Source of the DNA: Candidatus Peribacteria bacterium
GTDB lineage: Bacteria > Patescibacteriota > Gracilibacteria > Peribacterales > Peribacteraceae
Assembly (NCBI GenBank): GCA_023245765.1
Contig: JAHFJP010000006.1
Span: 1-44,424 of the forward strand
Reading direction: 5' to 3'
DNA length: 44,424 bases
A program made the translations under genes and the position numbers. This document shows, piece by piece, positions 17,328 to 42,027 of the stretch. The notes beneath the pieces were generated by a model. It made no database searches and was not told where the DNA came from. It was given only the letters and a program-made list of their open reading frames with translations. Numbering within the stretch: position 1 is the stretch's first letter; every line of letters starts with the position of its first letter.

Positions 17328-17365
17328 AGGAGAGGGATTCTCCGTCGAGGGGTAGAATCGTGTCA

Positions 17366-18175
17366 ATGCCAAAGAAGAACTCCTCCTTCGCCCCCGGCAA
17401 GATGATCCTCTCCGGCGAGTACGCCGTCGTCTTCGGATACCCCGGCATCGCGGTTCCAACGCATGCGGGAGTGGAGGTGACGCTGGAGGAAACGGGAGTC
17501 TCGCCGATGGAGATTGTTCTTGAAGGATTGTTTGAGGGCAAAGCGTACCCGCGAAAAATCGTCGACCTCTGCATCCGAACCAGCGCGGGTCTTCGACCCG
17601 CGGAAAGAGGAATTTCCACCGGAACGCTGAGGATCAACAACCAGATTCCCGTCGGACGCGGGATGGGTTCATCGACCGCGCTGACGATCGCGATTTGCCG
17701 CGTGCTGCTGGGAGCAGAGAACAAAACGCAGGCAATACTCGTCGAAGACCTGATCAATCCGGGCAATAGTGGACTGGATTTTTCGGTCATCTGGGCCAAT
17801 CGTCCCGTGAAATTCAAAAAAGGATTGTCGCCCGAGCCGCTGCATCTGGATCTCACATTTCTGAAGAACGCCAAGCTGATCGATACCGGCAAACCCGGCG
17901 AGACGACTGCGGAGCTCGTCGCATGGATGCGCGAACGGGAGAAGGAGGTGAAGGCACATCTGGACATGATCGGACACTGCACTGAGCGATTGCTCGCCGG
18001 TGAAGACCCGATGACCGTCATCCGCGATCATCACCGGGCACAGATTGCCCTCGGTGTCGTTCCGCAGGCCGTTCAGGAGTTGATAGCGAATATCGAAAAA
18101 TCCGGCGGCGCGGCGAAAGTGCTCGGAGCGGGAGCACGAACAGGAGGGGGTGGGATGATTCTCGTTTTTCAGTAA
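17366..18175 (+). CDS. GHMP kinase, probably mevalonate kinase
   Basis: FAPGKMILSGEYAVVFGYPGIAVPT; PVGRGMGSSTALTIA; GAAKVLGAGARTGGGGMILV; TAGAAT 7 nt upstream of ATG. Confidence 0.8.
   Translation: MPKKNSSFAPGKMILSGEYAVVFGYPGIAVPTHAGVEVTLEETGVSPMEIVLEGLFEGKAYPRKIVDLCIRTSAGLRPAERGISTGTLRINNQIPVGRGMGSSTALTIAICRVLLGAENKTQAILVEDLINPGNSGLDFSVIWANRPVKFKKGLSPEPLHLDLTFLKNAKLIDTGKPGETTAELVAWMREREKEVKAHLDMIGHCTERLLAGEDPMTVIRDHHRAQIALGVVPQAVQELIANIEKSGGAAKVLGAGARTGGGGMILVFQ
17584..17602. repeat. Palindromic element in-frame in the GHMP kinase (CGCGGGTC-TTC-GACCCGCG)
   Basis: Encodes SAGLRPAE. Confidence 0.75.
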
Positions 18176-18324
18176 ACAAAACAGTAAACACAAACATGGG
18201 TGGCCCGCGCGCCACGGGGGGTGAAGGGGATCCTGAAGAAACGCGGAAGAGTGCGATGCTCTTCAACCGAGCAACAGATTGGTTTCGCGCTGCGGCGCGA
18301 GTTGGCGCGCGCCGCCTTTCTTTT

Positions 18325-18360
18325 TGGCCATTTTCTTTGGCGGGACAAAGAAAATGGCCA
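18325..18360. repeat. Hairpin repeat TGGCCATTTTCTTTG-GCGGGA-CAAAGAAAATGGCCA
   Basis: 15-bp perfect inverted repeat; related element with 16-bp arms at 28411..28448. Confidence 0.85.
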
Positions 18361-18390
18361 TCGAACAGTTCTCCGCTAAAATCGCTGTCC

Positions 18391-19392
18391 ATGGCCACTG
18401 CACGATCCACCCCCAACATCGCCTTCATCAAATACTGGGGCAATCGCAACAACGACCTCCGCCTCCCCGCAGCGGATTCTCTTTCAATGACACTCGATAC
18501 GCCTTCCGTTGAGATCACTGTTGATCACGCAGATACGCTCTCCGTGCAATCGTTCCAGGCAAACGGCTCGGAAAAAGTGCTACAGGAGAAAGATATTGCA
18601 CGGTTCCAGAACCATCTGGATCTGACGAAGGAATACTTCCACCAGATCGGCCTCGCATCGGTAATCTCCTCGTCCACGTCGATCATCCTCCGTTCGCACA
18701 TCCCCTCCTCCATCGGCCTCGCATCATCGGCAGCCGTATTCTCGTGTCTCGCGAGAGCCTACGCAGGATTGATCAAAGACAAAACGAACCTGGATGACGA
18801 ACAGGTCAGCATCATCGCACGCCTGGGATCCGGATCCGCCGCTCGCAGCATCTACGGAGGGTACGAGGCGCTCATAGCCGGTGAGGGCGATGTGATTGAT
18901 TCCTCCTACGGCATGCAGGTCGCCAACGAGAAGCACTGGCTCCTGCACGACATCATCATCGTCCCGACGCAGGAGGAGAAAAAAGTCGGCTCAACCGAAG
19001 GCCATGCGCTCGCATGGACGAGTCCGTACTACCGCAAGCGCCTGGACCAGATGCCGCGACGGCAGAAAGAATGCTGGGATGCGATCATGACGAAAGATTT
19101 TGAGAAGTTGCAGCGCGTGGTGGAAGAAGACTGTTGGGACATGCACAACGTGATGCAGACGAGCATTCCCCCACTCCAGTATCTGAATGATGAGACGTAC
19201 CGGATCACGGATGCGATTGAAGAACTGCGGGAATCCGAAAATATCCCTGTGCTCTACACGATGGACGCCGGCCCGACAGTGCACCTCTTCTGTCCGGATG
19301 ACGCTCGGGAGAAAGTTCTCGCATTCGCCAACGCGCAGAAGGGCTGCAGGATATTCGAAACAAAGGTGGGACGAGGGGCGGTGTTGCTCTAA
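18391..19392 (+). CDS. mvaD: Diphosphomevalonate decarboxylase family protein
   Basis: TPNIAFIKYWGNRNNDLRLPAADSLSMTLD; SSIGLASSAAVFSCLA; RLGSGSAARSIYGGYEALIAG; TMDAGPTVHLF. Confidence 0.88.
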   Translation: MATARSTPNIAFIKYWGNRNNDLRLPAADSLSMTLDTPSVEITVDHADTLSVQSFQANGSEKVLQEKDIARFQNHLDLTKEYFHQIGLASVISSSTSIILRSHIPSSIGLASSAAVFSCLARAYAGLIKDKTNLDDEQVSIIARLGSGSAARSIYGGYEALIAGEGDVIDSSYGMQVANEKHWLLHDIIIVPTQEEKKVGSTEGHALAWTSPYYRKRLDQMPRRQKECWDAIMTKDFEKLQRVVEEDCWDMHNVMQTSIPPLQYLNDETYRITDAIEELRESENIPVLYTMDAGPTVHLFCPDDAREKVLAFANAQKGCRIFETKVGRGAVLL

Positions 19393-19403
19393 ACTGATCA
19401 CTC

Positions 19404-20561
19404 ATGGATCTGCGAACGGGCATCACCGGGAAAACAGGCGACTCGCGCTGCAATGAGCGCCGTTCGCGCATCGAGAAAGAGCTCGGCGCCGATCTTTCGG
19501 CACTCAAACCGTCAGCTGGTTCCATCGGCTCAGCAGATGAGAAGAACTGTGAGCAGATGCTCGGTCATGTTCCCCTCCCCGTTGGCTATGCCGGACCGTT
19601 GAGCGTGACATTCAGTTCCGGAGAGAAGAAAGATCTTCATTTGCCACTGGCAACGACCGAAGGAGCGCTTGTTGCGAGTGTGAACAGAGGCTGTAAGGCA
19701 CTGAGTGCATCCGGCGGCGTGAAGACGACGTCGATCCATCACGGAATCAGTCGATCCATTGCATTCCGGGGACGCGGACGCAAAGAAATTGGACAGTCCG
19801 CGAGTAAGTGGATGCCAATTGCTCAAGCAACCAGCGGACATCTGAAAGTGTTGAAGTATGACCTGGATGAAGCAGATGATTTCGTGTTCCTGACGCTCTT
19901 CTGCGACACGGACGAAGCGATGGGGATGAATATGGTTACGATTGCCGCGCAGGCCGTCGGCGAGTGGATCGAAAAGAATATCGACGGACTGGAATTCATC
20001 ACAGTCGCAGGGAATGTGGATTCCGATAAGAAAGCCAGCGCACGTGTTCACACGCACGGCCGCGGGTATGAAGTCACTGCAGAAGCAATCCTCACCGATG
20101 ATGTCATCCGTGATGTACTGAAGAGCACGCCCGAAGCATTACTCGCAGTCGCAGATGCAAAATTGAAACACGGATCGAAGATTGCCGGCACGATTGGATC
20201 AAACCTCCACGCCGCAAACATCATCGCGGCGCTTTATCTCGCGACGGGACAGGATGCGGCGCATGTCGTGGAGGGGTCGCTGACGGATACGTCTGTTAAA
20301 GCTGCCAGTGGCGGGTTGAAGATCTCCGTACGATGTCCGGCGATCCTCGTCGGCCTCCGCGGCGGCGGCACAACACTCCCCGCACAGTCACAATGTCTGG
20401 AAATGCTCATGAAACCGAAGACGTCGCTCCATCCAAAGGCGCAGCTCGCGGAGAGCATCGGTGCTGCGGTCCTTGCCGGCGAGATTTCGCTTCTTGCCGC
20501 CCAGGCGACTCATTCTCTGGCTTCTGCCCATGGAAAACTGGGGAGATTGCAAAAAAACTAA
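19404..20561 (+). CDS. Hydroxymethylglutaryl-CoA reductase
   Basis: CEQMLGHVPLPVGYAGPL; MGMNMVTIAAQAV; GTIGSNLHAANIIAALYLATGQDAAHVVEGS. Confidence 0.92.
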   Translation: MDLRTGITGKTGDSRCNERRSRIEKELGADLSALKPSAGSIGSADEKNCEQMLGHVPLPVGYAGPLSVTFSSGEKKDLHLPLATTEGALVASVNRGCKALSASGGVKTTSIHHGISRSIAFRGRGRKEIGQSASKWMPIAQATSGHLKVLKYDLDEADDFVFLTLFCDTDEAMGMNMVTIAAQAVGEWIEKNIDGLEFITVAGNVDSDKKASARVHTHGRGYEVTAEAILTDDVIRDVLKSTPEALLAVADAKLKHGSKIAGTIGSNLHAANIIAALYLATGQDAAHVVEGSLTDTSVKAASGGLKISVRCPAILVGLRGGGTTLPAQSQCLEMLMKPKTSLHPKAQLAESIGAAVLAGEISLLAAQATHSLASAHGKLGRLQKN

Positions 20562-20582
20562 AAAGTGATATAAATTCAATAA

Positions 20583-21566
20583 ATGGATAAGGCTTCATAC
20601 GTGCAATTCTTAGGCAATCAGCATTTTTCTCCCGAGCATGCGGAGTACTTATACGACGATATGCTCGATCGAGTGGATGGCCTGCACGGCAATGTCATCG
20701 CCGACTATCCGGTGTACGACGATATCCGGCGCAGGCACGTCTGTGCCGCCATCCGCAATACTCTCAGGAACCAATCGGAAGTACTGCGTTCTGCTCCGGA
20801 GGCAATGATGCACCTGCCGCTCTGGAAAAAACACTGCAGCACACGCCTCGCAAGACACTTCGTAAAAAGCATCATCGAGATCGGACAGAACCACAACGAT
20901 TTTTCCCGGTTGGAAATGACTCAACTCTGCGCAGGGTACGTCGGCAACATCAGTGAGCTCGGTGGAAGGGATTTGCAACAGAGTGCCACCGCTCTCCTCA
21001 AGAATTATCGCACGGCAATGCAGTACATCCTCGCGTACCACGATATCGATTCTCTGCCGGCATGGGCCCGCAACACAGTGCAGAAACCTCAGGAAACAGT
21101 CGAAAGCGACCGGATCGCTCCAAGTCGCTGGAGCGGCAAGCTCAGTTCCAAAACATGCGAGAGCGCGGGGCGCCGTTGGGAATACATGTTCACGCAGGAC
21201 AGCAGACATGAAGGCGAGTGCATTCTCCTTTCGCTGCCCGAACATCCCGACGTCCCGGTGGCGGCGCTGAAATTGTACAAAGAGAACAGCGTCCTGGCGC
21301 TCGAGACCGTTCGTTCACCGAGTACCGGCTTCTATCCGCTCGTGGAAGGAGGACTGTACGGACTCGACGTCACCTCCGTCGATGATGTCCTGTCTCCCCA
21401 GGACCGAGTGATGAAATTTCCCGTCGCCGTCATGAATTCTCTGCGATTTTCCCCCCAGCGCATGCTCGGTGAGCACCCGCGGTGGGAGAGGACGATAGAC
21501 ATGCAGATGATTAAAACAATCGCCCGACAAAAGGCGAGTGAGTTCATGAAACTCCTGAAACCATAG
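20583..21566 (+). CDS. Hypothetical protein within the mevalonate cluster
   Basis: 327-aa ORF with TATAAA 8 nt upstream; no recognised domain. Confidence 0.65.
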   Translation: MDKASYVQFLGNQHFSPEHAEYLYDDMLDRVDGLHGNVIADYPVYDDIRRRHVCAAIRNTLRNQSEVLRSAPEAMMHLPLWKKHCSTRLARHFVKSIIEIGQNHNDFSRLEMTQLCAGYVGNISELGGRDLQQSATALLKNYRTAMQYILAYHDIDSLPAWARNTVQKPQETVESDRIAPSRWSGKLSSKTCESAGRRWEYMFTQDSRHEGECILLSLPEHPDVPVAALKLYKENSVLALETVRSPSTGFYPLVEGGLYGLDVTSVDDVLSPQDRVMKFPVAVMNSLRFSPQRMLGEHPRWERTIDMQMIKTIARQKASEFMKLLKP

Positions 21567-21661
21567 TTACTCTTTCGTGAACAGAAATCGTAAAATATTC
21601 CATGAACTAAAACTCGATTTTGTGAAGGAAAGGGGCTGTTTCTTCTGCTAAACTCCCCCGG

Positions 21662-22687
21662 ATGCAAAAATCAGCAATCATCGGTTTCGGGCGTTATCTG
21701 CCAAAATTCCGCGTCAAAACCGCCTCTATAGCGCAGCACTGGGGGCAGGATCCCAAGGGCATCGTGAGCGGCCTCGGAATTAGCCAAAAGACCGTCCCGG
21801 GACGCGAAGAGGACAGCTACACGATGGCCTTTGAGGCTGCCCGTCAGGCGATGGATGTCGCAGAAATTCAATCGTCGGAGATCAGTGCGATCTTCGTCGG
21901 CAGCGAGAGCCATCCATACGCCGTGAAGCCGACCAGTTCGATGCTCGCGTCGAGTTTGGACCTCCATCCGTTCTGCCACTGCGCCGATCTGGAATTCGCC
22001 TGCAAGGCGGGCACAGCGGGGATGCAGATTGTGGATAGCTTCGTGCGGTCGGGACAGGTGAGTTACGGCATGGCGATCGGCACTGATGCCGCACAGGGCA
22101 AGCCCGGCGACGCGCTCGAGTACACGGCGGCGGCAGGAGCGGCGGCAGTGATCATAGGATCGGAGAAAACGCCTAAGGCGCTCTGCCGGATCGATCACAC
22201 GCTCTCCTTTACGACGGATACTCCGGACTTCTGGCGCCCGACGGGAGAAAAATACCCCCACCATGCGGGACGGTTCACGGGTGAGCCCGCGTACTTCCGG
22301 CATATGAAGGAAGCGACGCAGGGCATTCTCGCGATTGCGAAGCTAAAGCCTGCGGAGATCGACCACATTGTGTTCCATATGCCCAACGCGAAGTTCCCAA
22401 AAACGATCGCGAAGAAACTCGGCTTCACCGAAGACCAATTGGCGCTCGGCTTCATCGTCAAAGACATCGGGAACACCTACGCCGCGTGCTCTCCGCTCGG
22501 ACTCACCTACGTTCTGGAGAAAGCGAAGAAGAACGAGACGATCCTTCTTGTTTCCTATGGATCGGGATCGGGTTCCGATGCATTTTTGATGACGATGCTG
22601 CGCGATGGGGTTGAACTCTCTCGTGATGATCGGCAAACAGAGTATCTTTCTTACGACCAATACTTGGAACACTCCCACGCGCTCTGA
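21662..22687 (+). CDS. Hydroxymethylglutaryl-CoA synthase (archaeal-type-like)
   Basis: IIGFGRYLPKFRVKTASIA; EFACKAGTAGMQIVDSFVRSG; HHAGRFTGEPAYFRHM; HIVFHMPNAKFPKTIAKKLGF. Confidence 0.88.
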   Translation: MQKSAIIGFGRYLPKFRVKTASIAQHWGQDPKGIVSGLGISQKTVPGREEDSYTMAFEAARQAMDVAEIQSSEISAIFVGSESHPYAVKPTSSMLASSLDLHPFCHCADLEFACKAGTAGMQIVDSFVRSGQVSYGMAIGTDAAQGKPGDALEYTAAAGAAAVIIGSEKTPKALCRIDHTLSFTTDTPDFWRPTGEKYPHHAGRFTGEPAYFRHMKEATQGILAIAKLKPAEIDHIVFHMPNAKFPKTIAKKLGFTEDQLALGFIVKDIGNTYAACSPLGLTYVLEKAKKNETILLVSYGSGSGSDAFLMTMLRDGVELSRDDRQTEYLSYDQYLEHSHAL

Positions 22688-22726
22688 CTCGACCATTTTT
22701 CACTTTTCATTTTTCACTCGCCGTTC

Positions 22727-23860
22727 ATGATCTCCAACATCCACCTCATCGGCGCAGGACAAACGAGATTTGGAGAGCTCTGGGACAAGAGTATCCGCGA
22801 TCTGATGGAAGAAGCGACGGACGCCGCGATCGCAAATTCCCCCTGCACCGCGCTCGATATCGATCTGATCGTCGTCAGCAACATGCTGGCCGAAGTAACC
22901 AACGGTCAGGCGCATCTGAGCGCGATTGCCTCCAGCCTGCTCCCCCACCACCCCCCCGCGATCCGCGTTGAATCCGCCTGCGGGTCAGGGGCGTTCGCTC
23001 TCCACACCGCGATGGCAATGCTGGAGAGCGGCCGGGCGCGCAATGTTCTCGTGATCGGCGTGGAGAAAATGACTGACGTCTCCATGGAAACGGTGGCATC
23101 TGCGTTGATGGGCGCGGCAGATAGCGAGCAGGAGCGGCCCGCGGGCCTGACCTTTCCTGGCATTTTCGGTCTGATCGCCCAGCGCTACATGCACGATTTT
23201 GGTCTCAGTAGAGAGGATTTAAGTCTCGTAAGCGCAGTGCACCACCGCAACGCCTGTGCAAACCCTTTTGCGCAATTCCGGTCCGAGATCACGCCCGACG
23301 CTGTGAGTTCGAGTGCGGCGGTCGCAGATCCCCTGCGGCTTCTCGACTGCTCCCCGATCAGTGACGGTGCGGCGGCCTGCATTCTCTCAACCGAACACGT
23401 GAACGGCGTCAGAGTTGCCGCCTCACAGATCGCAAGCGATAGCCTGAGCATCATTCACCGCCCGGTGATCACTTCCTTTTCTGCAACCAAAGACGCCGCG
23501 GAGCGCGCACTGACGGAAGCGGGAATCAAACTGAAGGAGATCGACGTTCTCGAGACGCACGACTGCTTCTCCATTGCGGCACTGATCAACCTAGAGGATT
23601 TGGGATTTTGCGATCCCGGTCAGGGCATCAACATCTACAAGGATATTTTCGCTCGTAGGGGCGATTCGGGAATCGCCCTTGGGGTAAATCTGAGCGGCGG
23701 CCTCAAAGGCTGCGGCCATCCCGTCGCTGCCACCGGCATCAAACAGGTCATCGACGTCGCCAAGCAGCTACAGAAAACCGGACGACGATACGGTCTCGCC
23801 CACAACTTCGGCGGCGCTGCCGCCACCTGCGGCGTTCATATCCTCGAAAATGTTTCATAA
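22727..23860 (+). CDS. Thiolase family protein (acetyl-CoA acetyltransferase)
   Basis: AIRVESACGSGAFALHTAMAML; VLETHDCFSIAALINLEDLG; GVNLSGGLKGCGHPVAATGIKQ. Confidence 0.9.
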   Translation: MISNIHLIGAGQTRFGELWDKSIRDLMEEATDAAIANSPCTALDIDLIVVSNMLAEVTNGQAHLSAIASSLLPHHPPAIRVESACGSGAFALHTAMAMLESGRARNVLVIGVEKMTDVSMETVASALMGAADSEQERPAGLTFPGIFGLIAQRYMHDFGLSREDLSLVSAVHHRNACANPFAQFRSEITPDAVSSSAAVADPLRLLDCSPISDGAAACILSTEHVNGVRVAASQIASDSLSIIHRPVITSFSATKDAAERALTEAGIKLKEIDVLETHDCFSIAALINLEDLGFCDPGQGINIYKDIFARRGDSGIALGVNLSGGLKGCGHPVAATGIKQVIDVAKQLQKTGRRYGLAHNFGGAAATCGVHILENVS

Positions 23861-33090: not shown

Positions 33091-34101
33091 ATGAATACCC
33101 TCAGCAGATTCGCCGCGATTGTCCTCATTATTCCGGTCGTCGGTCTGACACTTGCCGGATGCAGCAAGAAACTCACCGGTGACGTTACTACGGGTGCGAA
33201 GTTGTCCTTCAAGATCAATGTCGATACGTGGCTCGGCTACGCGCCGCTCTACCTCGCCAAGGAAAAAGGATTCTTCGGAAATGCGGACGTCTCGATCGAT
33301 GTGAGTCCCGACGTCGCCGTGCGCAAGACCGGCATCAAGAGCGGCAATTTCCAGGCCATCGCCGAGACGGTGGACATGCTGGTCCTCGACCGGGACGAAG
33401 GCGTCCCGACGGTTGCCGTCAGCGGCATGGACTTCAGTAACGGCGCGGACGGCATCGTCGCGGTCGATGCGGTGAAGACGCTCCAGGATCTGAAGGGGAA
33501 GACCGTCCTCGTACAGAAGAACTACGCAAGTGAAGCGCTGCTCAACTATCTGCTCGAGAAAAACGGCATCGCGTTCGCGGACGTGCACACAGTGGATACC
33601 GAGGCCGGGGCCGCGGGAGCGGCATTCGTCGCGGGCAAGACCGACGTCGCCGTGACGTTCGAACCGTGGCTGTCCAAAGCGAAGGATCGCGGCAACGGTC
33701 ATATTCTGATCAGCAGCAAAGATGCTCCCGGCGTCATCGTCGACATCCTCTCGATTCAGAAAGATTACCTCACGGCGCATCCTGAAGTTGTCCGTGATGT
33801 CGTCAACGGATGGTTCAAAGCGGTCGAGTACTGGAGGGCACACACGGAGGAGTCGAACGCGATCATGGCGAAATATTACTCGGATACCCCCGCAGAGTTC
33901 GCCGATCAGATCTCTGGAATCAAGTGGCCGACATATGAGGAAAATGTGAGCTACTTCACGAAGGGATCGACGCCGAGTATCTACGATACGGCGAACACCT
34001 TCGTGGAAATCTACAAGAAAACCGGCCAGACCCAGAACGACTTTGATCTGGATCCCGCCATCGACGGATCGATTCTCCAGAGCCTGCATGCGTCGAAGTA
34101 A
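33091..34101 (+). CDS. ABC transporter substrate-binding lipoprotein, NitT/TauT (SsuA/NMT1-like) family
   Basis: Lipobox TLAGC; WLGYAPLYLAKEKGFF; LKGKTVLVQKNYASEALLNYLLEKNGI; AVTFEPWLSKA. Confidence 0.87.
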   Translation: MNTLSRFAAIVLIIPVVGLTLAGCSKKLTGDVTTGAKLSFKINVDTWLGYAPLYLAKEKGFFGNADVSIDVSPDVAVRKTGIKSGNFQAIAETVDMLVLDRDEGVPTVAVSGMDFSNGADGIVAVDAVKTLQDLKGKTVLVQKNYASEALLNYLLEKNGIAFADVHTVDTEAGAAGAAFVAGKTDVAVTFEPWLSKAKDRGNGHILISSKDAPGVIVDILSIQKDYLTAHPEVVRDVVNGWFKAVEYWRAHTEESNAIMAKYYSDTPAEFADQISGIKWPTYEENVSYFTKGSTPSIYDTANTFVEIYKKTGQTQNDFDLDPAIDGSILQSLHASK

Positions 34102-34864
34102 GTGGGCCTCCGTCGGCCTCGGCTCGCTGTCGTTCGCGGTTATCTTCGTGATCTGGAGCGCAGTGACGTACACGCGATTCGTCAGCGACGTCTTCCTGCC
34201 GACACCGAGTGAACTTGTTCACGGAGCAGTCATGCTCTTCGTGCAGCGGGGCTTCCTCTGGGACATCGGCATCAGCGCGCTGCGCATCATCATCGGATTT
34301 GTGATTGCCGTCATGCTCGCGATCCCGATCGGCATCGCATTGGGATTGAGCCGCCGGGCGAGCCAATTGCTCGAACCCGTCGTCGACTTTATCCGCTACA
34401 TTCCGAATCCCGCGCTCATTCCCCTCTTCATCCTCTGGTTTGGGGTCGGCGAGACCGAGAAGATCATCGTGATTTCCCAGACCGTGTTCTTTCAGCTCGT
34501 GCTGATGGTGGCCAACTCCGTGTCGTTCACGCCCAAGGAGATTATCGAATCGGCACAGACGCTCGGCGCGACGCGCTGGCACATCATCACGCGCGTGATT
34601 TTCCCCTACATCAAGCCACGAATCTACGATGACCTGCGCATCTCCATCGGCTGGGCATGGACGGCGCTGATGGCTGCGGAAATCGTCGGTGCCAGCTCCG
34701 GCATCGGCTTGATCATCGTCGAAGCGCAACGATTGCTCCGCACGCCGAACGTGGTCGCCGGCATTCTGACCATCGGCATTCTGGGACTCATCACCGACAT
34801 CACGATGAAGTTGCTCTACCCCGTCTTCTTCCCCTGGGCTCCCAAGCTCGAGCACCATGCTTGA
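34088..34864 (+). CDS. ABC transporter permease, NitT/TauT (SsuC/TauC-like)
   Basis: FLPTPSELVHGA; LRIIIGFVIAVMLAIPIGIALGLS; FIRYIPNPALIPLFILWFGVGETEKIIVI. Confidence 0.88.
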   Translation: MRRSKWASVGLGSLSFAVIFVIWSAVTYTRFVSDVFLPTPSELVHGAVMLFVQRGFLWDIGISALRIIIGFVIAVMLAIPIGIALGLSRRASQLLEPVVDFIRYIPNPALIPLFILWFGVGETEKIIVISQTVFFQLVLMVANSVSFTPKEIIESAQTLGATRWHIITRVIFPYIKPRIYDDLRISIGWAWTALMAAEIVGASSGIGLIIVEAQRLLRTPNVVAGILTIGILGLITDITMKLLYPVFFPWAPKLEHHA

Positions 34865-35600
34865 ACTCATCCATGTCAGTAAGAGCTTCCGGTCGGCGGA
34901 CGGCGCTGTCGTTCCGGCTGTCGATGATATCTCGATGACGATCAGCGAAAAGGAATTCGTCTCGATCGTCGGTCCGTCCGGCTGCGGCAAGACCACGCTC
35001 CTCAGGATGATCGCGGGGCTCGAGACCTCCGCGGGATCGCACATTGTCTTCAACGGCCATCCCGTCCACGGCCCCGACCGCGAGCGCGGCATGGTCTTCC
35101 AGAACTTCGCGCTCTTCCCGTGGATGACGGTGGAGGAGAATATCGGCAGTGGCCTGCGCTTCGCTGGCAAATCCGATGCGGAGACGCAGGACATCGTTTC
35201 ACGCTACCTGAAGCTGACCGGTTTGGAGAAGTTCGCGACGGCGTACCCGATGACACTCTCCGGCGGCATGAAGCAACGCGTCGCAATCGCCCGAACGCTG
35301 GCCAGCGACCCACAGATCATCCTGATGGATGAGCCCTTCGGCGCACTCGATACGCAAACGCGGTCGCAGATGCAGGAATTTCTCGCGGACCTCTGGGTCA
35401 AAGACAGCAAGACCGTCATCTTCGTCACGCACGACATCGAAGAAGCGATCTTCCTCTCCGATCGTGTGTTTTTGATGTCTCCGAGGCCGGGACAGATCAA
35501 ACAGGAATTCAAGATCCCTTTCGGACCCGGCCGAAACCATGAACTGAAGTTCTCGGATGAGTTCTTCGCACTCAAGAAGGAGATCATGCGGATGATGTGA
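34857..35600 (+). CDS. ABC transporter ATP-binding protein, NitT/TauT (SsuB/TauB-like)
   Basis: GPSGCGKTTLLRMIAGLE; FQNFALFPWMTVEENI; LSGGMKQRVAIARTLASDPQIILMDEPFGALD. Confidence 0.93.
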   Translation: MLELIHVSKSFRSADGAVVPAVDDISMTISEKEFVSIVGPSGCGKTTLLRMIAGLETSAGSHIVFNGHPVHGPDRERGMVFQNFALFPWMTVEENIGSGLRFAGKSDAETQDIVSRYLKLTGLEKFATAYPMTLSGGMKQRVAIARTLASDPQIILMDEPFGALDTQTRSQMQEFLADLWVKDSKTVIFVTHDIEEAIFLSDRVFLMSPRPGQIKQEFKIPFGPGRNHELKFSDEFFALKKEIMRMM

Positions 35601-35620: not shown

Positions 35621-37294
35621 ATGCAATCCACCTGCCCCCACTGCTCCGGCACATTCACGATCGAGCATGCCGATCTCGATTTTATCGAAAGGATCTCGCC
35701 GGTCATCGCGGGAAAAAAGCACCTGATTCCCCCTCCGACCTTCTGCCCAACGTGCCGACGGCAGCGGCGCTTTACGCACCGCAATGAGAAGCGGCTCTAC
35801 CAGCGGACGTGCGCCAAGACCGGCAAGCCGATCATCTCGATCTATTCGCCGGACAAGAACCTCGTCGTCTTCGACAAGACGGAATGGTGGGGCGACGGAT
35901 GGGACGCGAAGGCGCACGCAAAGGACATCGACTTCTCGCGGCCGTTCTTCGAGCAACTGCGGGAATTGCAGACAGTCGTGCCGCGGATGGCGCTCCAGCA
36001 GGAGAATAACCAGAATAGCGACTACACCGGCAACACGTCGCACCTGAAGAACTGCTATCTGATCTTCTCTGCGGACTTCGACCAGGATTGCGCGTACGGC
36101 GTCTGGATCGAGCGCAGCAAAAACTGCTGCGACAACCTGATGATCGACGAATGCGAGCAGAGCTATGAATGTTTCTTCTCCAAAAAACTCTATCGTTGCC
36201 GCAACGCCCTGCACTGCTCCCAGTGCAGCGACAGTGCCTTTCTGTTCGACTGCCGCAACTGTCAGAGCTGCCTGATGTGCTGGGGACTCCGCAACAAGAA
36301 GCACTGCATCGCCAACGTCCAGTACACCAAAGAGGAGTATGAAAAGCGCCTGAAGGAATTCCCGCTGACGTCGCACAAGAATTACGAGGCGGCCAAGGAG
36401 CAGTTCGCCAAACTGTTCGCGAAGGCGCCGCGGCCGGCCATGCGCATCCAGGGCACCGTCATTGATTCAACAGGAGATCTTCTGAGTCAGTGCCAGAACT
36501 GTAAAGATTGCTACGAACTGACAGAGGGCAAAGACTGCCGGTACTGTGCAGGGGCCTTCAAGGTGGTTGACGCGGTGGATTGCAATTATTTCATGGGGGA
36601 ATTCGGGTACGAGAACTGCGAGTGCTTCCCCATGCCGCAGCACTCGGCCTTCAACATGAACTCCTACGGGGGATCGGATCTGTACTACTGCGACATGTGC
36701 ATGCTCAACTGCCGCGACTGCTTTGGCTGCGTTGGCCTCAAGCGCGGGCAGTACTGCATCTTGAACAAGCAGTATACGAAGAATGAATACGAAGCACTGC
36801 TCCCGCGATTGATCGATCACATGACGAAAACTGGTGAATGGGGCCAATACGTTCCGGCAGCGATGAGTCTCTACGCCTACAACGAATCTCAGGCGCAGGA
36901 GGAATTCCCGCTGACGAAGAAAGACGCTACCGTAAAGGGATGGTCCTGGTTGGACGAAGAGGAGAACAATAAATCCGCCGGACCGGCCGTCCCGATCCCC
37001 GATGATATCAGCGACATCGACGATACGATCTGTCAGCAGATTCTCCGGTGCGAAGTCACCGGCAAGGCATACAAGATCATCCCGCAGGAACTGACGTTCT
37101 ACAGAGATCTCGGCATCCCGATTCCCCGCCGCTGCTTTGATCAGCGGCACACCGATCGCATCACCCACCGCAATCCCCGCCAGCTCTGGACGAGAAAGTG
37201 CGGAAAGTGCTCGAAGGAGATTCAGTCGACATATGATCCAAAGAGGCCGGAAGTCGTTTTGTGTGAAGAGTGTTACTTGAAGATGGTTTACTAA
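35621..37294 (+). CDS. Cysteine-rich multi-zinc-ribbon protein, paralog 1
   Basis: About 39 Cys by hand count; CPHC...CPTC N-ribbon; CxxC repeats; KCGKCSKEIQSTYDPKRPEVVLCEECYLKMVY C-ribbon; ORF track start 35597 overlaps the ATPase stop. Confidence 0.8.
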   Translation: MQSTCPHCSGTFTIEHADLDFIERISPVIAGKKHLIPPPTFCPTCRRQRRFTHRNEKRLYQRTCAKTGKPIISIYSPDKNLVVFDKTEWWGDGWDAKAHAKDIDFSRPFFEQLRELQTVVPRMALQQENNQNSDYTGNTSHLKNCYLIFSADFDQDCAYGVWIERSKNCCDNLMIDECEQSYECFFSKKLYRCRNALHCSQCSDSAFLFDCRNCQSCLMCWGLRNKKHCIANVQYTKEEYEKRLKEFPLTSHKNYEAAKEQFAKLFAKAPRPAMRIQGTVIDSTGDLLSQCQNCKDCYELTEGKDCRYCAGAFKVVDAVDCNYFMGEFGYENCECFPMPQHSAFNMNSYGGSDLYYCDMCMLNCRDCFGCVGLKRGQYCILNKQYTKNEYEALLPRLIDHMTKTGEWGQYVPAAMSLYAYNESQAQEEFPLTKKDATVKGWSWLDEEENNKSAGPAVPIPDDISDIDDTICQQILRCEVTGKAYKIIPQELTFYRDLGIPIPRRCFDQRHTDRITHRNPRQLWTRKCGKCSKEIQSTYDPKRPEVVLCEECYLKMVY

Positions 37295-37300
37295 CGCCTC

Positions 37301-39001
37301 ATGAAAACGATCTGCGCAAATCTCTGGTGCAAAGCGGCATTCGAGGTCAGTGAGGATGATCTTGCTTTCTACGACAGGATTTCACCGGTGATCGCGGGGA
37401 AGAAACACGCAATACCGCCCCCGTTGATCTGTGCGGACTGTCGCCAGCAACGCCGTCTTGCGTTCCGCAACGAACGCCATCTATACAAGCAAACGTGCAA
37501 TTTGTGCAAAAGCTCCATCATCTCCATCTACTCTTCCGACAAAGGGTACACAGTGTACTGCCCGCGCTGTTGGTGGAGTGATGCATGGGACGCACTCTCG
37601 TACGGCCGGCCTTTCGATTTTCAGCGACCGTTTTTTCCGCAATTTCAGGAATTGTTCCGTGTCGTTCCCAAGATGGCGGTGCTGACAATCGGACTGAACA
37701 TGAACAGCGACTACGTTCACGACGTCTACATGTCCAAAAACTGCTATCTCCTCTTCGACGGCGAACAGTGCCAGGACAGTTACTACGGCGAAGTCTTCGC
37801 CCGCATCCGCAATTGCTGCGACTTCTTCTACCTCAAGGATTCCGAGCTCTGCTACGACTGCGTTCACTGCCTCCACGGCTACAGCCTCGTGGGCTGTCGT
37901 TTCTGCAGCAACTGTTCGGAATCTTTCTTTCTCCTCGATTGCCGGGGTTGCCGGCATTGCATTGGTTGCGTCAATCTCGTGGAGAAGGAGTATCACATCT
38001 TCAATAAGCCACACACGAAAGAGGAGTATGAACGTTTTCTCTCATCGAGCGGAGTGCATACATGGACCGGGTACAAAAGCCTCCAGGAGCAAGCGTCAAA
38101 ATTTTCCCTGCTTCATCCCCGGCGCGCAGTCCGTGGAACGATGAATGAACATGTGCGGGGTGATAATCTTTCCAACTGCAAGGATGTCTTCGACTGCTTT
38201 GACTGCGATGATATGCGCGATTGCCGCCACTGCACCAATTGTCCGATGGGCGCGACAGATTGCTTTGACCTCGATGCGTGGGGTGACCGCCTGAATACCG
38301 CCTATGATTGTGCATACGCGGGAGCGGATTCTCGCGGGCTTGCCGGTTGCTGGTACGTCGGCAACTCTGCAAGCGATATTCTCCATTCCGCATACTGCCT
38401 CCAAGGAGGTGCGAACATGCTCGGCTGCGTGGGTATGCGGAAGAAAGAATTCTGCATATTGAATACGCAATACAGCAAAGAAGAATACGAAACACTGGCT
38501 CTTCGTATCGTTGAGCATATGAAGAAGACTGCAGAATGGTGCCAGTTCTTCCCCACAAATCTCTCGGCATTTGCGTATAACGAAACAGTGGCGCAACAGT
38601 ATTATCCAGTCACCGAAAAACAGGCATTGGAGCGCGGCTGGCGGTGGAAGCACGACATTGATGAAACCCCGAAAGCGGGAAAGGTGATCCCCGCAGCGAA
38701 ACTGCCGGATTCCATCGACGATATTCCGGACGACATTCTGAATTGGGCGATTACCTGTGAAAAAACAGGCAAGCCTTTCCGCATCATCAAACAAGAACTG
38801 GATTTCTATAAACAACTGCATCTCCCGGTCCCCCGATTGCATCAGGATGAACGACATCACCAGCGCATTACCTGGCGCAATCCCCGCAAGCTCTGGAATC
38901 GAAGATGCATGAAGTGCAGTAAAGGGATGCAGACGAGCTACGCCCCCGATCGTCCGGAGAAGATCTACTGCGAGGATTGCTACCTCAAAGAAGTGTATTA
39001 G
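37301..39001 (+). CDS. Cysteine-rich multi-zinc-ribbon protein, paralog 2
   Basis: Same layout as 35621; 6-nt gap; intact second CNLC...CPRC knuckle. Confidence 0.82.
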   Translation: MKTICANLWCKAAFEVSEDDLAFYDRISPVIAGKKHAIPPPLICADCRQQRRLAFRNERHLYKQTCNLCKSSIISIYSSDKGYTVYCPRCWWSDAWDALSYGRPFDFQRPFFPQFQELFRVVPKMAVLTIGLNMNSDYVHDVYMSKNCYLLFDGEQCQDSYYGEVFARIRNCCDFFYLKDSELCYDCVHCLHGYSLVGCRFCSNCSESFFLLDCRGCRHCIGCVNLVEKEYHIFNKPHTKEEYERFLSSSGVHTWTGYKSLQEQASKFSLLHPRRAVRGTMNEHVRGDNLSNCKDVFDCFDCDDMRDCRHCTNCPMGATDCFDLDAWGDRLNTAYDCAYAGADSRGLAGCWYVGNSASDILHSAYCLQGGANMLGCVGMRKKEFCILNTQYSKEEYETLALRIVEHMKKTAEWCQFFPTNLSAFAYNETVAQQYYPVTEKQALERGWRWKHDIDETPKAGKVIPAAKLPDSIDDIPDDILNWAITCEKTGKPFRIIKQELDFYKQLHLPVPRLHQDERHHQRITWRNPRKLWNRRCMKCSKGMQTSYAPDRPEKIYCEDCYLKEVY

Positions 39002-39019
39002 TTCCTGTACGAGGAACCC

Positions 39020-39787
39020 CTACTCCCCCATCTTTCCCGCAAGATCGAACAAGAAGTGGAAGATTTGACTCAACTCCGCCTGCGTCATCTTCAATCCAAT
39101 TTGTGTTCCTTTGTAGCAAGCGAGGTAGACCGTATGACCGATCAGAAAGATATTCGTGGACCCATGCGTGACCAGTGATGATGAAGCGGAGATGTCTTTT
39201 CCGGAAAGCTTGCGTAGGCGCTCGGGAACAAGACCGCCGGTGACTTCGAATAGTTCAACGCTGACTTTCTGTTCGCGAAGATCCGTGAAGAAACCATCGA
39301 CGATCCTCTGCATCGCCGCATCGCTGAGCCATTCTTCAAACGTATTGGAACTGAGGAGTCGCACTTGGCGGACGTTCTCCTGCTTCACTGTATGGAGCAT
39401 GTCGCGGAAGAGAGCTTTGATTCCGGCGGTTCCTTCAAAGATCTGAAGTCGCGGGACGGCATCTTCGCTCCCGCGGAGTGAGCGCAGGGCATTGGCAATG
39501 ATCGGGAAGCGCTTTTGCAGATCAGAATAACTCTGGACGTGTTCTCCGACGTACGATTCCAGCGCTTCGAAGCTCTCGATGCCGAAACACTGGATGCCGT
39601 TGCGAGAATAGACTTTCACAAGCCCCTTCTCCGCAAGCTTCTTGAGGTGCTTGTACGCCGTCACGCGGTCGAGGTTGGACCGCCGCGCGATCACGGACGC
39701 CGGTTGGACTCCGATTTCCGCCAGAACCATGTAGAGCGCTGTCTCTTTGTCGTTAAAGCCGAGGGTGGAGAGGTACTCTTTGAGCAT
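39020..39787 (-). CDS. TrmB-like transcriptional regulator 2
   Basis: LSTLGFNDKETALYMVLAEIGVQPASVIARRSNLDRVTAYKHLKKLAEKGLVKVY; divergent from paralog 3. Confidence 0.82.
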   Translation of the reverse strand: MLKEYLSTLGFNDKETALYMVLAEIGVQPASVIARRSNLDRVTAYKHLKKLAEKGLVKVYSRNGIQCFGIESFEALESYVGEHVQSYSDLQKRFPIIANALRSLRGSEDAVPRLQIFEGTAGIKALFRDMLHTVKQENVRQVRLLSSNTFEEWLSDAAMQRIVDGFFTDLREQKVSVELFEVTGGLVPERLRKLSGKDISASSSLVTHGSTNIFLIGHTVYLACYKGTQIGLKMTQAELSQIFHFLFDLAGKMGE

Positions 39788-39798
39788 CGGAATCCTGT

Positions 39799-39816
39799 TG
39801 TTCTTAAAGAAGAACA
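39799..39816. promoter_or_regulatory. Candidate operator palindrome TGTTCTT-AAAG-AAGAACA in divergent spacer
   Basis: Perfect 7-bp arms between TrmB-like 2 and Cys-rich paralog 3. Confidence 0.5.
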
Positions 39817-39883
39817 GTAGCTGAGTGTAGCACAACAGAATATGCTTTGCAGGCTATTTGTAGCCATTATTTCTGTTCAATTG

Positions 39884-41560
39884 ATGGAACGAAAATGCGC
39901 CAATTGCGGCAATGCCTTCCTCATCCACCAGGATGAGCAGGAATTCGTGAAGCGCATGGTCTTCGCCTTTGGCAAGAAGACCATCACTCCCCCGCTCCCC
40001 GTGCAGTGTCCAGACTGCCGACTGAAGAACCGGACGGTCTACCGCAACGAGCAGTACCTCTACAAAGTCCGCTCGGCATTTAGCGGCAAAGATATCGTCT
40101 CGATCATGAATGAAAAACCGCTCTGGGGTGAACCGTATGTGATCTACGATCAGAATGAATGGCGCAGTGATGCCTTCGATCCGCTGATCTACGGCCGGGA
40201 CTTCGATTTCAAGAAACCATTCTTCGAGCAGTTTGCGCAATTGCAGAAGGATGTACCGCGCATGGCGCTCATCACGCTTGCGAATGAAAACTCGGGCTTC
40301 TCCACGGGCACCGCATACTGCAAGAACTGCTATCTGATCAATTCGTCGGAGAACTGCGAGGATTGCTACTACGGCAAGCTCCTACAGAAGTGCAGCGACT
40401 CAATCGATTGCAGCTATCTCTACAATTCGCAGCTCTGCTACGAGTGCTTCTCGGTCTATGACTCCTACAACTGCCAGTGGCTCGCGTTCAGTACCAACTG
40501 CCGCGACTGCTACTTCTCCAGCAACCTGAGCGGCTGCAGCAACTGCTGCCTCTGCACAAACCTGAACCACAAGGAATATCACTTCATGAATAAGCCACTG
40601 GGCAAAGATGAATACGAGAAGCGCCTCTCCGAATTCCGCGGTTCCTTCGAGCGGATCGGGAAGATGAAAGAACTACGGAAGAAGATGATGCATTCGATGG
40701 TCCACAAGTACTCCAATATCGTAAACTGTCAGGACTGCACCGGAGACTACATTGAAAATTCCAAGAGCTGCAAAGACTGCTACGACGTCAACGAGAGCCA
40801 GGACTGCCGCTACGTGACGGTCGGCGTGAACGTAAAGGACATCTACGACTGCTCCAACATGTATCTGAAGCCGGAGCTCTGCTACATGACGCTCGGAACG
40901 ATCGAAGTGCACACGGTCGCCTTCTGCTTGTTCGTCTTCCACTCGCAGCGTCTCCTGTACTGCGACCACTGCTTCAACTGCTCAGATTGTTTCGCGTGTA
41001 ACGGACTGACGCGCAAGAAGTTCTGCATCTTCAACAAGCAGTACACGAAAGAACAGTACGAAGAACTGGTGCCGAAGATCATCGCGCAGATGGAGAAGAA
41101 CGGCGAATGGGGTCAGTACCTTCCGGCCAAGTACTCCCCCTTCGGCTACAACGAATCCCTCGCATCCGAGTACTTCCCGTTATCCGAAGCAGAAGCTAAA
41201 AAGCAGGGTTTCCACTGGCGCGATAAAGATGCACGGGATTACAAGCCGCAGACCTACACACTCCCCGATCGTATCGATCAGGTCCCCGATTCTGTGACGC
41301 AAGAAATCCTGGCCTGTGCCACATGCACCAAGAACTACCGTGTCATCCCGCAGGAACTCAGCTACTACCGCAAACACATTCTCCCCGTCCCGCATCACTG
41401 CCCCGATTGTCGACATGCGGAGCGGATGAAGTTGAGGAATCCGCGGAAGCTCTGGAAGCGCGAGTGTGCGAAGTGCAAAAGAGAACTGCAGTCGACATAC
41501 GCTCCAGACCGACCGGAAGTGATTGCATGTGAGGAGTGTTATCTTAAAGAAGTCTACTAA
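39884..41560 (+). CDS. Cysteine-rich multi-zinc-ribbon protein, paralog 3
   Basis: MERKCANCGNAF...CPDCRLKNRTVYRNEQYLYK; CxxC repeats; KCKRELQSTYAPDRPEVIACEECYLKEVY; start may be 39842. Confidence 0.82.
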   Translation: MERKCANCGNAFLIHQDEQEFVKRMVFAFGKKTITPPLPVQCPDCRLKNRTVYRNEQYLYKVRSAFSGKDIVSIMNEKPLWGEPYVIYDQNEWRSDAFDPLIYGRDFDFKKPFFEQFAQLQKDVPRMALITLANENSGFSTGTAYCKNCYLINSSENCEDCYYGKLLQKCSDSIDCSYLYNSQLCYECFSVYDSYNCQWLAFSTNCRDCYFSSNLSGCSNCCLCTNLNHKEYHFMNKPLGKDEYEKRLSEFRGSFERIGKMKELRKKMMHSMVHKYSNIVNCQDCTGDYIENSKSCKDCYDVNESQDCRYVTVGVNVKDIYDCSNMYLKPELCYMTLGTIEVHTVAFCLFVFHSQRLLYCDHCFNCSDCFACNGLTRKKFCIFNKQYTKEQYEELVPKIIAQMEKNGEWGQYLPAKYSPFGYNESLASEYFPLSEAEAKKQGFHWRDKDARDYKPQTYTLPDRIDQVPDSVTQEILACATCTKNYRVIPQELSYYRKHILPVPHHCPDCRHAERMKLRNPRKLWKRECAKCKRELQSTYAPDRPEVIACEECYLKEVY

Positions 41561-42027
41561 TGAGTCTCGAAACTTCAGATTCAGGCTCGTCGATGACCCG
41601 AAGAACTGCCATCAGAACCGGTCTTGGTCTTGCAGGGCTTGCCTCTCTAAGCATGTGCATATGGAGTTGCGCAACCGACCCTGAAACGCCCGCAACCCGC
41701 GAAATGCGGAGGAGAGTGACTGAACACTATGATCGGACAACGAAAGGAGTGAATGACGTTGAAGTGAATTTTTTCATTGTTCCACGCAGGTTCCTCACTC
41801 CGGATTTTCGCGAAGTTGTTATCAAGAAAGCCGTAGAAGGCCTGGATAGACATTGCCGTGAAGGTTTTGAGCAATCGTTCGAACAGCGTGCGCGAAGAGT
41901 ATTGCTTGGAGAACCGGATAACATCGAAGACTACAAGCGTTTCGTCACTGAAAACTCAGTGAACACGGAAATTATTTTGGAATTGGAGCGGCGAGGAGTG
42001 AAAATTTTTGAATTGCAAAGACCCTGA
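41560..42027 (+). CDS. Small exported protein with twin-arginine-like/lipoprotein-like signal
   Basis: TRRTAIRTGLGLAGLASLSMCIWSC; TAATG overlap with paralog 3 stop. Confidence 0.65.
   Translation: MSLETSDSGSSMTRRTAIRTGLGLAGLASLSMCIWSCATDPETPATREMRRRVTEHYDRTTKGVNDVEVNFFIVPRRFLTPDFREVVIKKAVEGLDRHCREGFEQSFEQRARRVLLGEPDNIEDYKRFVTENSVNTEIILELERRGVKIFELQRP

Follow-up and report, generated by a model that had tools for sequence, protein, structure and literature searches.

Cysteine-rich solenoid and zinc-finger proteins of Candidatus Peribacteria and their association with a soluble VirD4/TraG-like ATPase

Introduction

Relatives of VirD4, one of the coupling ATPases of type IV secretion systems (T4SS), are abundant in Patescibacteria, where most are encoded away from any secretion channel gene and where what they do is acknowledged to be an open question (PMC12102498). 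A survey from 2025 recorded 5,713 VirD4-like proteins in 2,918 Patescibacteria genomes, with 148 near virB4, and considered exaptation possible while leaving the function open; distant placement of coupling genes is common (PMC12102498). Two other described groups bear on the locus considered here, namely the uncharacterised treble-clef fingers zf_Tbcl (PF13451) and zf_Tbcl_2 (PF23477, equivalent to TIGR04272 CxxC-x17-CxxC), and the cysteine-rich proteins of Candidatus Peribacter riflensis, which have a mean length of 1,655 amino acids (aa), mostly carry signal peptides and are predicted to be extracellular (PMC4736985). The present analysis concerns a 44,424-nucleotide stretch of DNA from a Candidatus Peribacteria bacterium (contig JAHFJP010000006.1 of assembly GCA_023245765.1), referred to throughout as the window, which comes from contig C67 of a genome of 1.45 Mb assembled into 71 contigs. 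It encodes three cysteine-rich paralogs of about 560 aa, P1, P2 and P3, in each of which two finger modules (A and A') enclose two solenoid modules (B and B'). We conclude from comparisons of sequence that proteins of this family probably work with a cytosolic VirD4-type motor, as its adaptors or as its cargo; the more specific proposition, that P1-P3 belong to an undescribed cytosolic solenoid/zinc-finger family working with one soluble VirD4/TraG-like ATPase, we judge to be evenly balanced. Neither the family nor its pairing with the ATPase is described in the open-licence papers that were searched, and the name 'CaiB/BaiF family protein', considered for such proteins, was discarded because no such paper came up for it.

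A linked VirD4/TraG-like ATPase

The partnership between the family and this ATPase is well supported by association. Clustering of the neighbours of 78 named family loci returned TrmB regulators at 28 loci and an ATPase of 750 aa at 13, along with an ATP-binding cassette (ABC) exporter, an M23 peptidase and an ORF6N protein that recur at a few loci each. In the genome from which the window derives, the ATPase gene (C53:3353-5593) lies on a different contig and follows a family gene at a distance of 23 bp. The linked ATPase matches PF02534 (T4SS-DNA_transf), PF10412 (TrwB), PF01935 (HerA-type) and TraG-D_C, the first two above their cut-offs, and has a weak match to TrwB in the PDB. The linked ATPases form a monophyletic clade (support 0.90), and the Walker A and Walker B motifs are intact in all 31 aligned members. 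Hydropathy at the N-terminus is low in nearly all members of the clade, as against values of 1.8-2.7 in most of the VirD4-like paralogs of the same genomes, which begin with a strongly hydrophobic stretch.

A survey of the class placed the full-length family protein and the ATPase clade together in 36 genomes, the full-length protein alone in a single genome (G303), the ATPase alone in none, and neither in 33, a group that includes six genomes with a finger-type match only and two counted as finger-only. The corresponding Fisher p of 3e-19 measures an association and is not a test of independent events, since the genomes share ancestry. ATPases of the clade were called at 560 bits or more, against at most about 515 for other proteins in genomes using the standard code, and by clade placement in genomes that recode TGA; where scores were doubtful, in ten family-less genomes, every ATPase candidate that was fetched fell outside the clade, and some other family-less genomes were judged by score alone. 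At the level of individual loci, 33 of the 38 clade members have a family gene no more than 1.5 kb away, among them members from two genomes that recode TGA and from two that do not belong to the class; two of the five remaining members sit at contig ends. The TGA-recoded Gracilibacteria genomes that carry loci L205 and L206 (code 25) retain both the family and an adjacent ATPase. No virB-type cluster was noted beside the loci inspected, no search aimed at virB4 having been made.

Split loci and finger-ATPase fusions

The modules that are joined in P1-P3 occur as separate, adjacent genes in three genomes and in three different orders: ATPase, double solenoid BB' and finger A in G121; ATPase, finger A and double solenoid in G290; and finger A, double solenoid, one further gene and ATPase in G194. 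The three-gene loci of G121 and G290 amount to about 1,150-1,200 codons, a size that would permit expression and purification. The gene that intervenes between double solenoid and VirD4-like ATPase in G194 (L198:7953-8993) encodes 347 aa with a sigma-region-4-like stretch recognised by eye. A separate pair of double solenoid and finger is also present in the genome of the window, on contig C18. The strongest hint that finger and VirD4-like motor belong together comes from two proteins of other lineages in which a VirD4-like ATPase carries PF23477 as a C-terminal fusion (39.2 bits in G230 and 47 bits in G002, with a cut-off of 27).

Genes of the TrmB type stand beside the arrays as well. Among 36 located around family genes, 30 have a family gene as immediate neighbour and 20 stand head to head with one; in the genome of the window, 4 of the 11 TrmB genes are close to members of the family, which is above chance (Poisson about 4e-4).

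Module architecture and zinc fingers

A reading made from the sequence alone had described three paralogs of mirror-like A-B-B'-A' architecture with homologous ends and repeated middle units, and most of that description has been borne out. All three reading frames are open and full length, and the order A-B-B'-link-A' is repeated in nearly all relatives scanned. Profile comparison with hhalign across 206 full-length homologs, the set used for column conservation throughout, relates A to A' (E 5.6e-27), so that the two ends are not unrelated, and B to B' (E 1e-34); A and B show no relation by the same comparison. The mirror holds for the order of the modules and not for their orientation, as the repeats run in the same direction.

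In P2, module A occupies residues 1-100 (37301-37600, plus strand, as for all modules given here) and is a treble-clef finger pair by conservation, by its profile match to A' and by PF13451 in relatives. Module B (residues 133-252; 37697-38056) is, by periodicity and structural model, a solenoid with a cysteine core and the cap motif N-x-x-(S/T)KEEYE, and B' (residues 282-412; 38144-38536) is a second solenoid with the same cap, supported by hhalign and the model. A conserved acidic linker follows (residues 413-478; 38537-38734), with the consensus TGEWGEFFP..SPF.YNET.AQEYFPLT and a mean net charge of -7, and leads to A' (residues 479-566; 38735-38998), a basic finger identified by conservation and PF23477 matches that is conserved up to its final residue. 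The fingers are basic, with charges of +3 for A and +7 for A', and are set around acidic solenoids.

The ribbon modules proposed from the sequence are indeed zinc-finger ends, although they are not equivalent, each retaining a different one of two zinc sites. Site 1 is kept in A (C5, C10, C44 and C47 of P2; 92-100% of homologs), where site 2 is degenerate in most, and site 2 is kept in A' (C536, C539, C557 and C560; 98-100%), where site 1 has been lost; module A of P2 itself still has the cysteines of both. Only about two zinc sites are conserved per protein, and the ancestral finger unit had two. P1-P3 score 15.4-17.7 bits against PF13451 and PF23477, below the Pfam gathering cut-offs of 24-27. 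Of 37 aligned members, 25 show PF23477 with E no higher than 0.1, the lowest value being 4.3e-8. Separate A proteins of the same system, some 100 aa long and encoded by the same genomes, do exceed the Pfam cut-off (25.6-40.3 bits), so that the tie of A and A' to PF13451 and PF23477 is one of descent.

The cysteine-cored solenoid

Each of P1-P3 contains 40-41 cysteines (40 in P1), and the mean across the family is 39. Their regular spacing, already remarked upon in the sequence-only reading, is far from chance: pairs of cysteines in B are enriched 2.6-4x over shuffles at lags 3, 6, 9 and 12, with every other lag at about 0.1x, and the strongest repeat is of 12 residues. The cysteines of B are almost confined to one phase modulo 3, at which 45% of residues are cysteine, 15% serine and 11% leucine. 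Core cysteines are exchanged independently for serine, valine, leucine, isoleucine or alanine, and the maximum correlation between any two cysteine columns is 0.33.

The AlphaFold2 model of P2, built from 37 sequences, has a mean predicted local distance difference test (pLDDT) of 87 and a predicted template modelling score of 0.85, and places strands 12 residues apart (194-197, 206-209, 218-221 and 230-233); residues 131-190 are less certain (pLDDT 55-60). Because cysteine recurs every third residue with a period of 12 and is swapped independently, we conclude from sequence and model that it probably serves mainly as a small core residue of a narrow, four-sided beta-solenoid of 12 residues per turn. 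The suggestion of a metal-binding solenoid, drawn earlier from the CxxC spacing, is thereby retained as to the solenoid and not as to the metal, and a metal-ladder solenoid was rejected because core cysteines are lost independently of each other. Near-invariant cysteines at the last rungs (C217, C220 and C223 in the first solenoid; C376 and C385 in the second) could form a further site, to judge from their conservation.

The solenoids match nothing in Pfam, NCBIfam, PADLOC or the PDB, and membership of a known enzyme family was rejected on that ground; the sequence-only reading, too, had given no assigned function for such proteins. A fold search with the whole model against the PDB and viral structures gave no match at E 0.001 or better, nor did a Foldseek search with the double solenoid, where the input model was mediocre (pLDDT 74) and the negative is correspondingly weak evidence. 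Residues 284-404 of P3, in its second solenoid (40694-41053), match weakly to phrog_15341, a phage family of unknown function (E 3e-6); the phage records searched after this match were negative.

Family size, spread and history

The 1.45-Mb genome of the window has about ten family loci, and still larger numbers of matches, counts that include fragments, occur in relatives (31 in G291, 22 in G327 and 20 each in G305 and G309). Such reduced genomes give a large share of their coding sequence to the family, and its solenoid domain is absent from every library searched. The relatives are named as Candidatus Peribacteria, Peregrinibacteria, Abawacabacteria and Gracilibacteria, and the family extends over the Peribacteria/Peregrinibacteria/Gracilibacteria class and a few other lineages, in keeping with the earlier statement that similar proteins occur in genomes of the Candidate Phyla Radiation. 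One family gene (locus L074) comes from a contig that bears the label Micrarchaeota archaeon UBA10214 and is probably bacterial and misbinned.

In the arrays examined all 87 neighbouring pairs of family genes are on the same strand, many with gaps below 10 bp. Most paralogs of one genome share 40-50% identity, and their orthologs are found in other genera, for which reason growth of the arrays by recent copying was rejected. The best matches between genomes (G000 to G188, G135, G252, G260 and G234) have 29-65% identity, as compared with 61-69% for tryptophanyl-tRNA synthetase. The family is an old repertoire rather than the product of a recent burst. An origin in mobile elements was also rejected, with no match among plasmid records and only one fragmentary viral contig.

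The genes of the window and their surroundings

P1 (35621-37294) was recovered by open reading frame scan and family search and has 557 aa from the ATG at 35621, with an alternative start possible at a GTG at 35597. P2 (37301-39001; 566 aa) is the protein of the AlphaFold model. P3 (39884-41560), placed by scan and ortholog tree, has 558 aa from the ATG at 39884, with an alternative ATG possible at 39842, and has orthologs in G188, G252 and G121. All three are on the plus strand, and P1 and P2 are probably co-transcribed because only 6 bp separate the stop codon of the one from the start of the other. Hydropathy gives no signal peptide and no membrane helix in P1-P3, the hydrophobic segments being too weak, so that the cytoplasmic location proposed earlier is probable.

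Two TrmB-family regulators are encoded on the minus strand: one between P2 and P3 and divergent from P3 (39020-39835; PF01978, E 2.3e-10), which is likely to regulate the array, and another 0.6 kb beyond P3 (42123-42917; PF01978, E 1.3e-14), for which such a role is possible. Upstream, an ABC importer operon of substrate-binding lipoprotein, permease and ATPase (33091-35600) ends 21 bp from the ATG of P1, and because of this short distance P1 and P2 may share its transcript. The stop codon of P3 is overlapped by a gene for a 155-aa protein (41560-42027) with an N-terminus resembling a twin-arginine (Tat) signal or that of a lipoprotein, which found no match in Pfam and NCBIfam scans. Farther away, a mevalonate-pathway run was recognised by eye from the translations (17360-23860), comprising two proteins of the GHMP kinase/decarboxylase type, hydroxymethylglutaryl-coenzyme A (HMG-CoA) reductase, HMG-CoA synthase and thiolase. 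Mevalonate-pathway genes have been reported for Peribacteria.

A proposed motor system and its alternatives

One plausible arrangement has the basic modules A and A' docking either on the ATPase itself or on its nucleic acid substrate, with the two solenoids as rigid recognition or spacer arms and with TrmB-type regulators selecting which paralogs are made. The solenoids differ between paralogs, and one motor would therefore serve many adaptors or cargoes. The ancestral unit probably consisted of three genes, for motor, double solenoid and finger, which would later have been fused as finger-solenoid-solenoid-finger and then multiplied. Taken to its full extent, the proposal is of a Patescibacteria motor system in which a soluble VirD4-like ATPase draws on an interchangeable, TrmB-switched set of up to about 31 proteins, each steering it to a nucleic acid, a nucleoprotein or a partner cell of its own; this we offer as a tentative possibility that falls short of even likelihood. 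Such a system would probably fit no known kind, while its fingers and its ATPase fold are familiar parts. Several observations weigh against a working partnership of family and ATPase. Genome G303 (L203, C6) has two family genes of the full-length type and no member of the ATPase clade, most family genes, P1-P3 included, are not adjacent to the ATPase, and the ATPases of the split loci of G194 and G290 fall outside the clade, that of G194 having a hydrophobic N-terminus. Many accessory genes can, moreover, travel together for unrelated reasons, and the genomes in the count are interrelated.

The most serious rival, which we consider unlikely, is that the paralogs are secreted effectors, the cargo of the VirD4-like coupling ATPase, sent through the Patescibacteria T4SS to a host bacterium with A' as export signal. 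In Saccharimonadia, epibiotic growth requires the Patescibacteria T4SS genes (PMC12102498, PMC12857230), and a dedicated ATPase resembling a coupling protein, the many paralogs and the conservation of the C-terminal module right to its end count in favour of export; yet all copies have the same modules with no variable toxin or enzyme domain, and a finger that is elsewhere fused to ATPases or free would be an odd export signal. The ATPase is, moreover, without the membrane anchor that coupling proteins normally have, and for this reason we lean slightly towards adaptors of a motor handling nucleic acid or nucleoprotein. Less likely than exported effectors are three further explanations. HerA-type motors occur in defence systems, and the accessory-like presence and absence of these proteins within one family, their high copy number and the weak similarity of the motor to the PADLOC models mad8 (E 1e-11) and HerA (E 3e-5), which are generic ATPase matches only, would suit anti-phage or anti-plasmid defence with the motor as effector and the paralogs as sensors of different invaders. 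This is improbable given that the arrays have no recurrent neighbour with a nuclease, toxin or other defence domain, that P1-P3 match no PADLOC model, and that the paralogs fall into old orthologous groups across genera instead of fast-turnover copies.

It is more doubtful still that the proteins are stand-alone nucleic-acid-binding regulators or scaffolds whose link to the ATPase is merely historical. Basic fingers flanking acidic solenoids, the TrmB neighbours and the position of most copies away from the ATPase gene would be accommodated by such a role, which is difficult to reconcile with near-perfect co-occurrence with one ATPase clade and with re-linkage repeated in three gene orders. 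Storage of metal or thiol in the manner of metallothionein, by the roughly 40 cysteines of each protein, is the least probable of those weighed here: the abundance of cysteine and the near-invariant cysteines at the last rungs of each solenoid speak for it, whereas the solenoid cysteines all lie at one core phase, are lost independently and form no co-conserved ligand sets, and the linked motor is left unexplained. The reading of the family as adaptors of a cytosolic motor, for its part, provides one clade of VirD4-like ATPases with a specific partner candidate.

Comparison with known systems

The family shares with the large cysteine-rich proteins of Candidatus Peribacter riflensis its bacterial group and its richness in cysteine; at about 560 aa and without a signal peptide it differs from them in size and location, which rules out identity with those extracellular proteins. 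The nearest parallel for the solenoid is geometric, the 12-residue beta-helix of the Tenebrio molitor antifreeze protein (1ezg), which likewise has 12 residues per turn with cysteines inside the coil and which Foldseek lists at E 3.8 with the double solenoid as query, a comparison of geometry for which homology is not claimed. That protein is a secreted, disulfide-bonded ice binder with the repeat TCTxSxNCxxAx (PMC8038014), unlike the family proteins, which are predicted to be cytosolic and have no TCT repeat, threonine array, signal peptide or significant structural match to it. With zf_Tbcl and zf_Tbcl_2 the relationship is one of derivation, in that A and A' derive from a two-finger unit of this kind, each minus one of its two zinc sites and both fused to solenoids. 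The linked ATPase, finally, has the domains and Walker motifs of the VirD4/TrwB/TraG coupling ATPases of T4SS, and is set apart from those coupling proteins as a distinct clade that generally lacks the N-terminal membrane segment and adjoins genes for solenoids and fingers.

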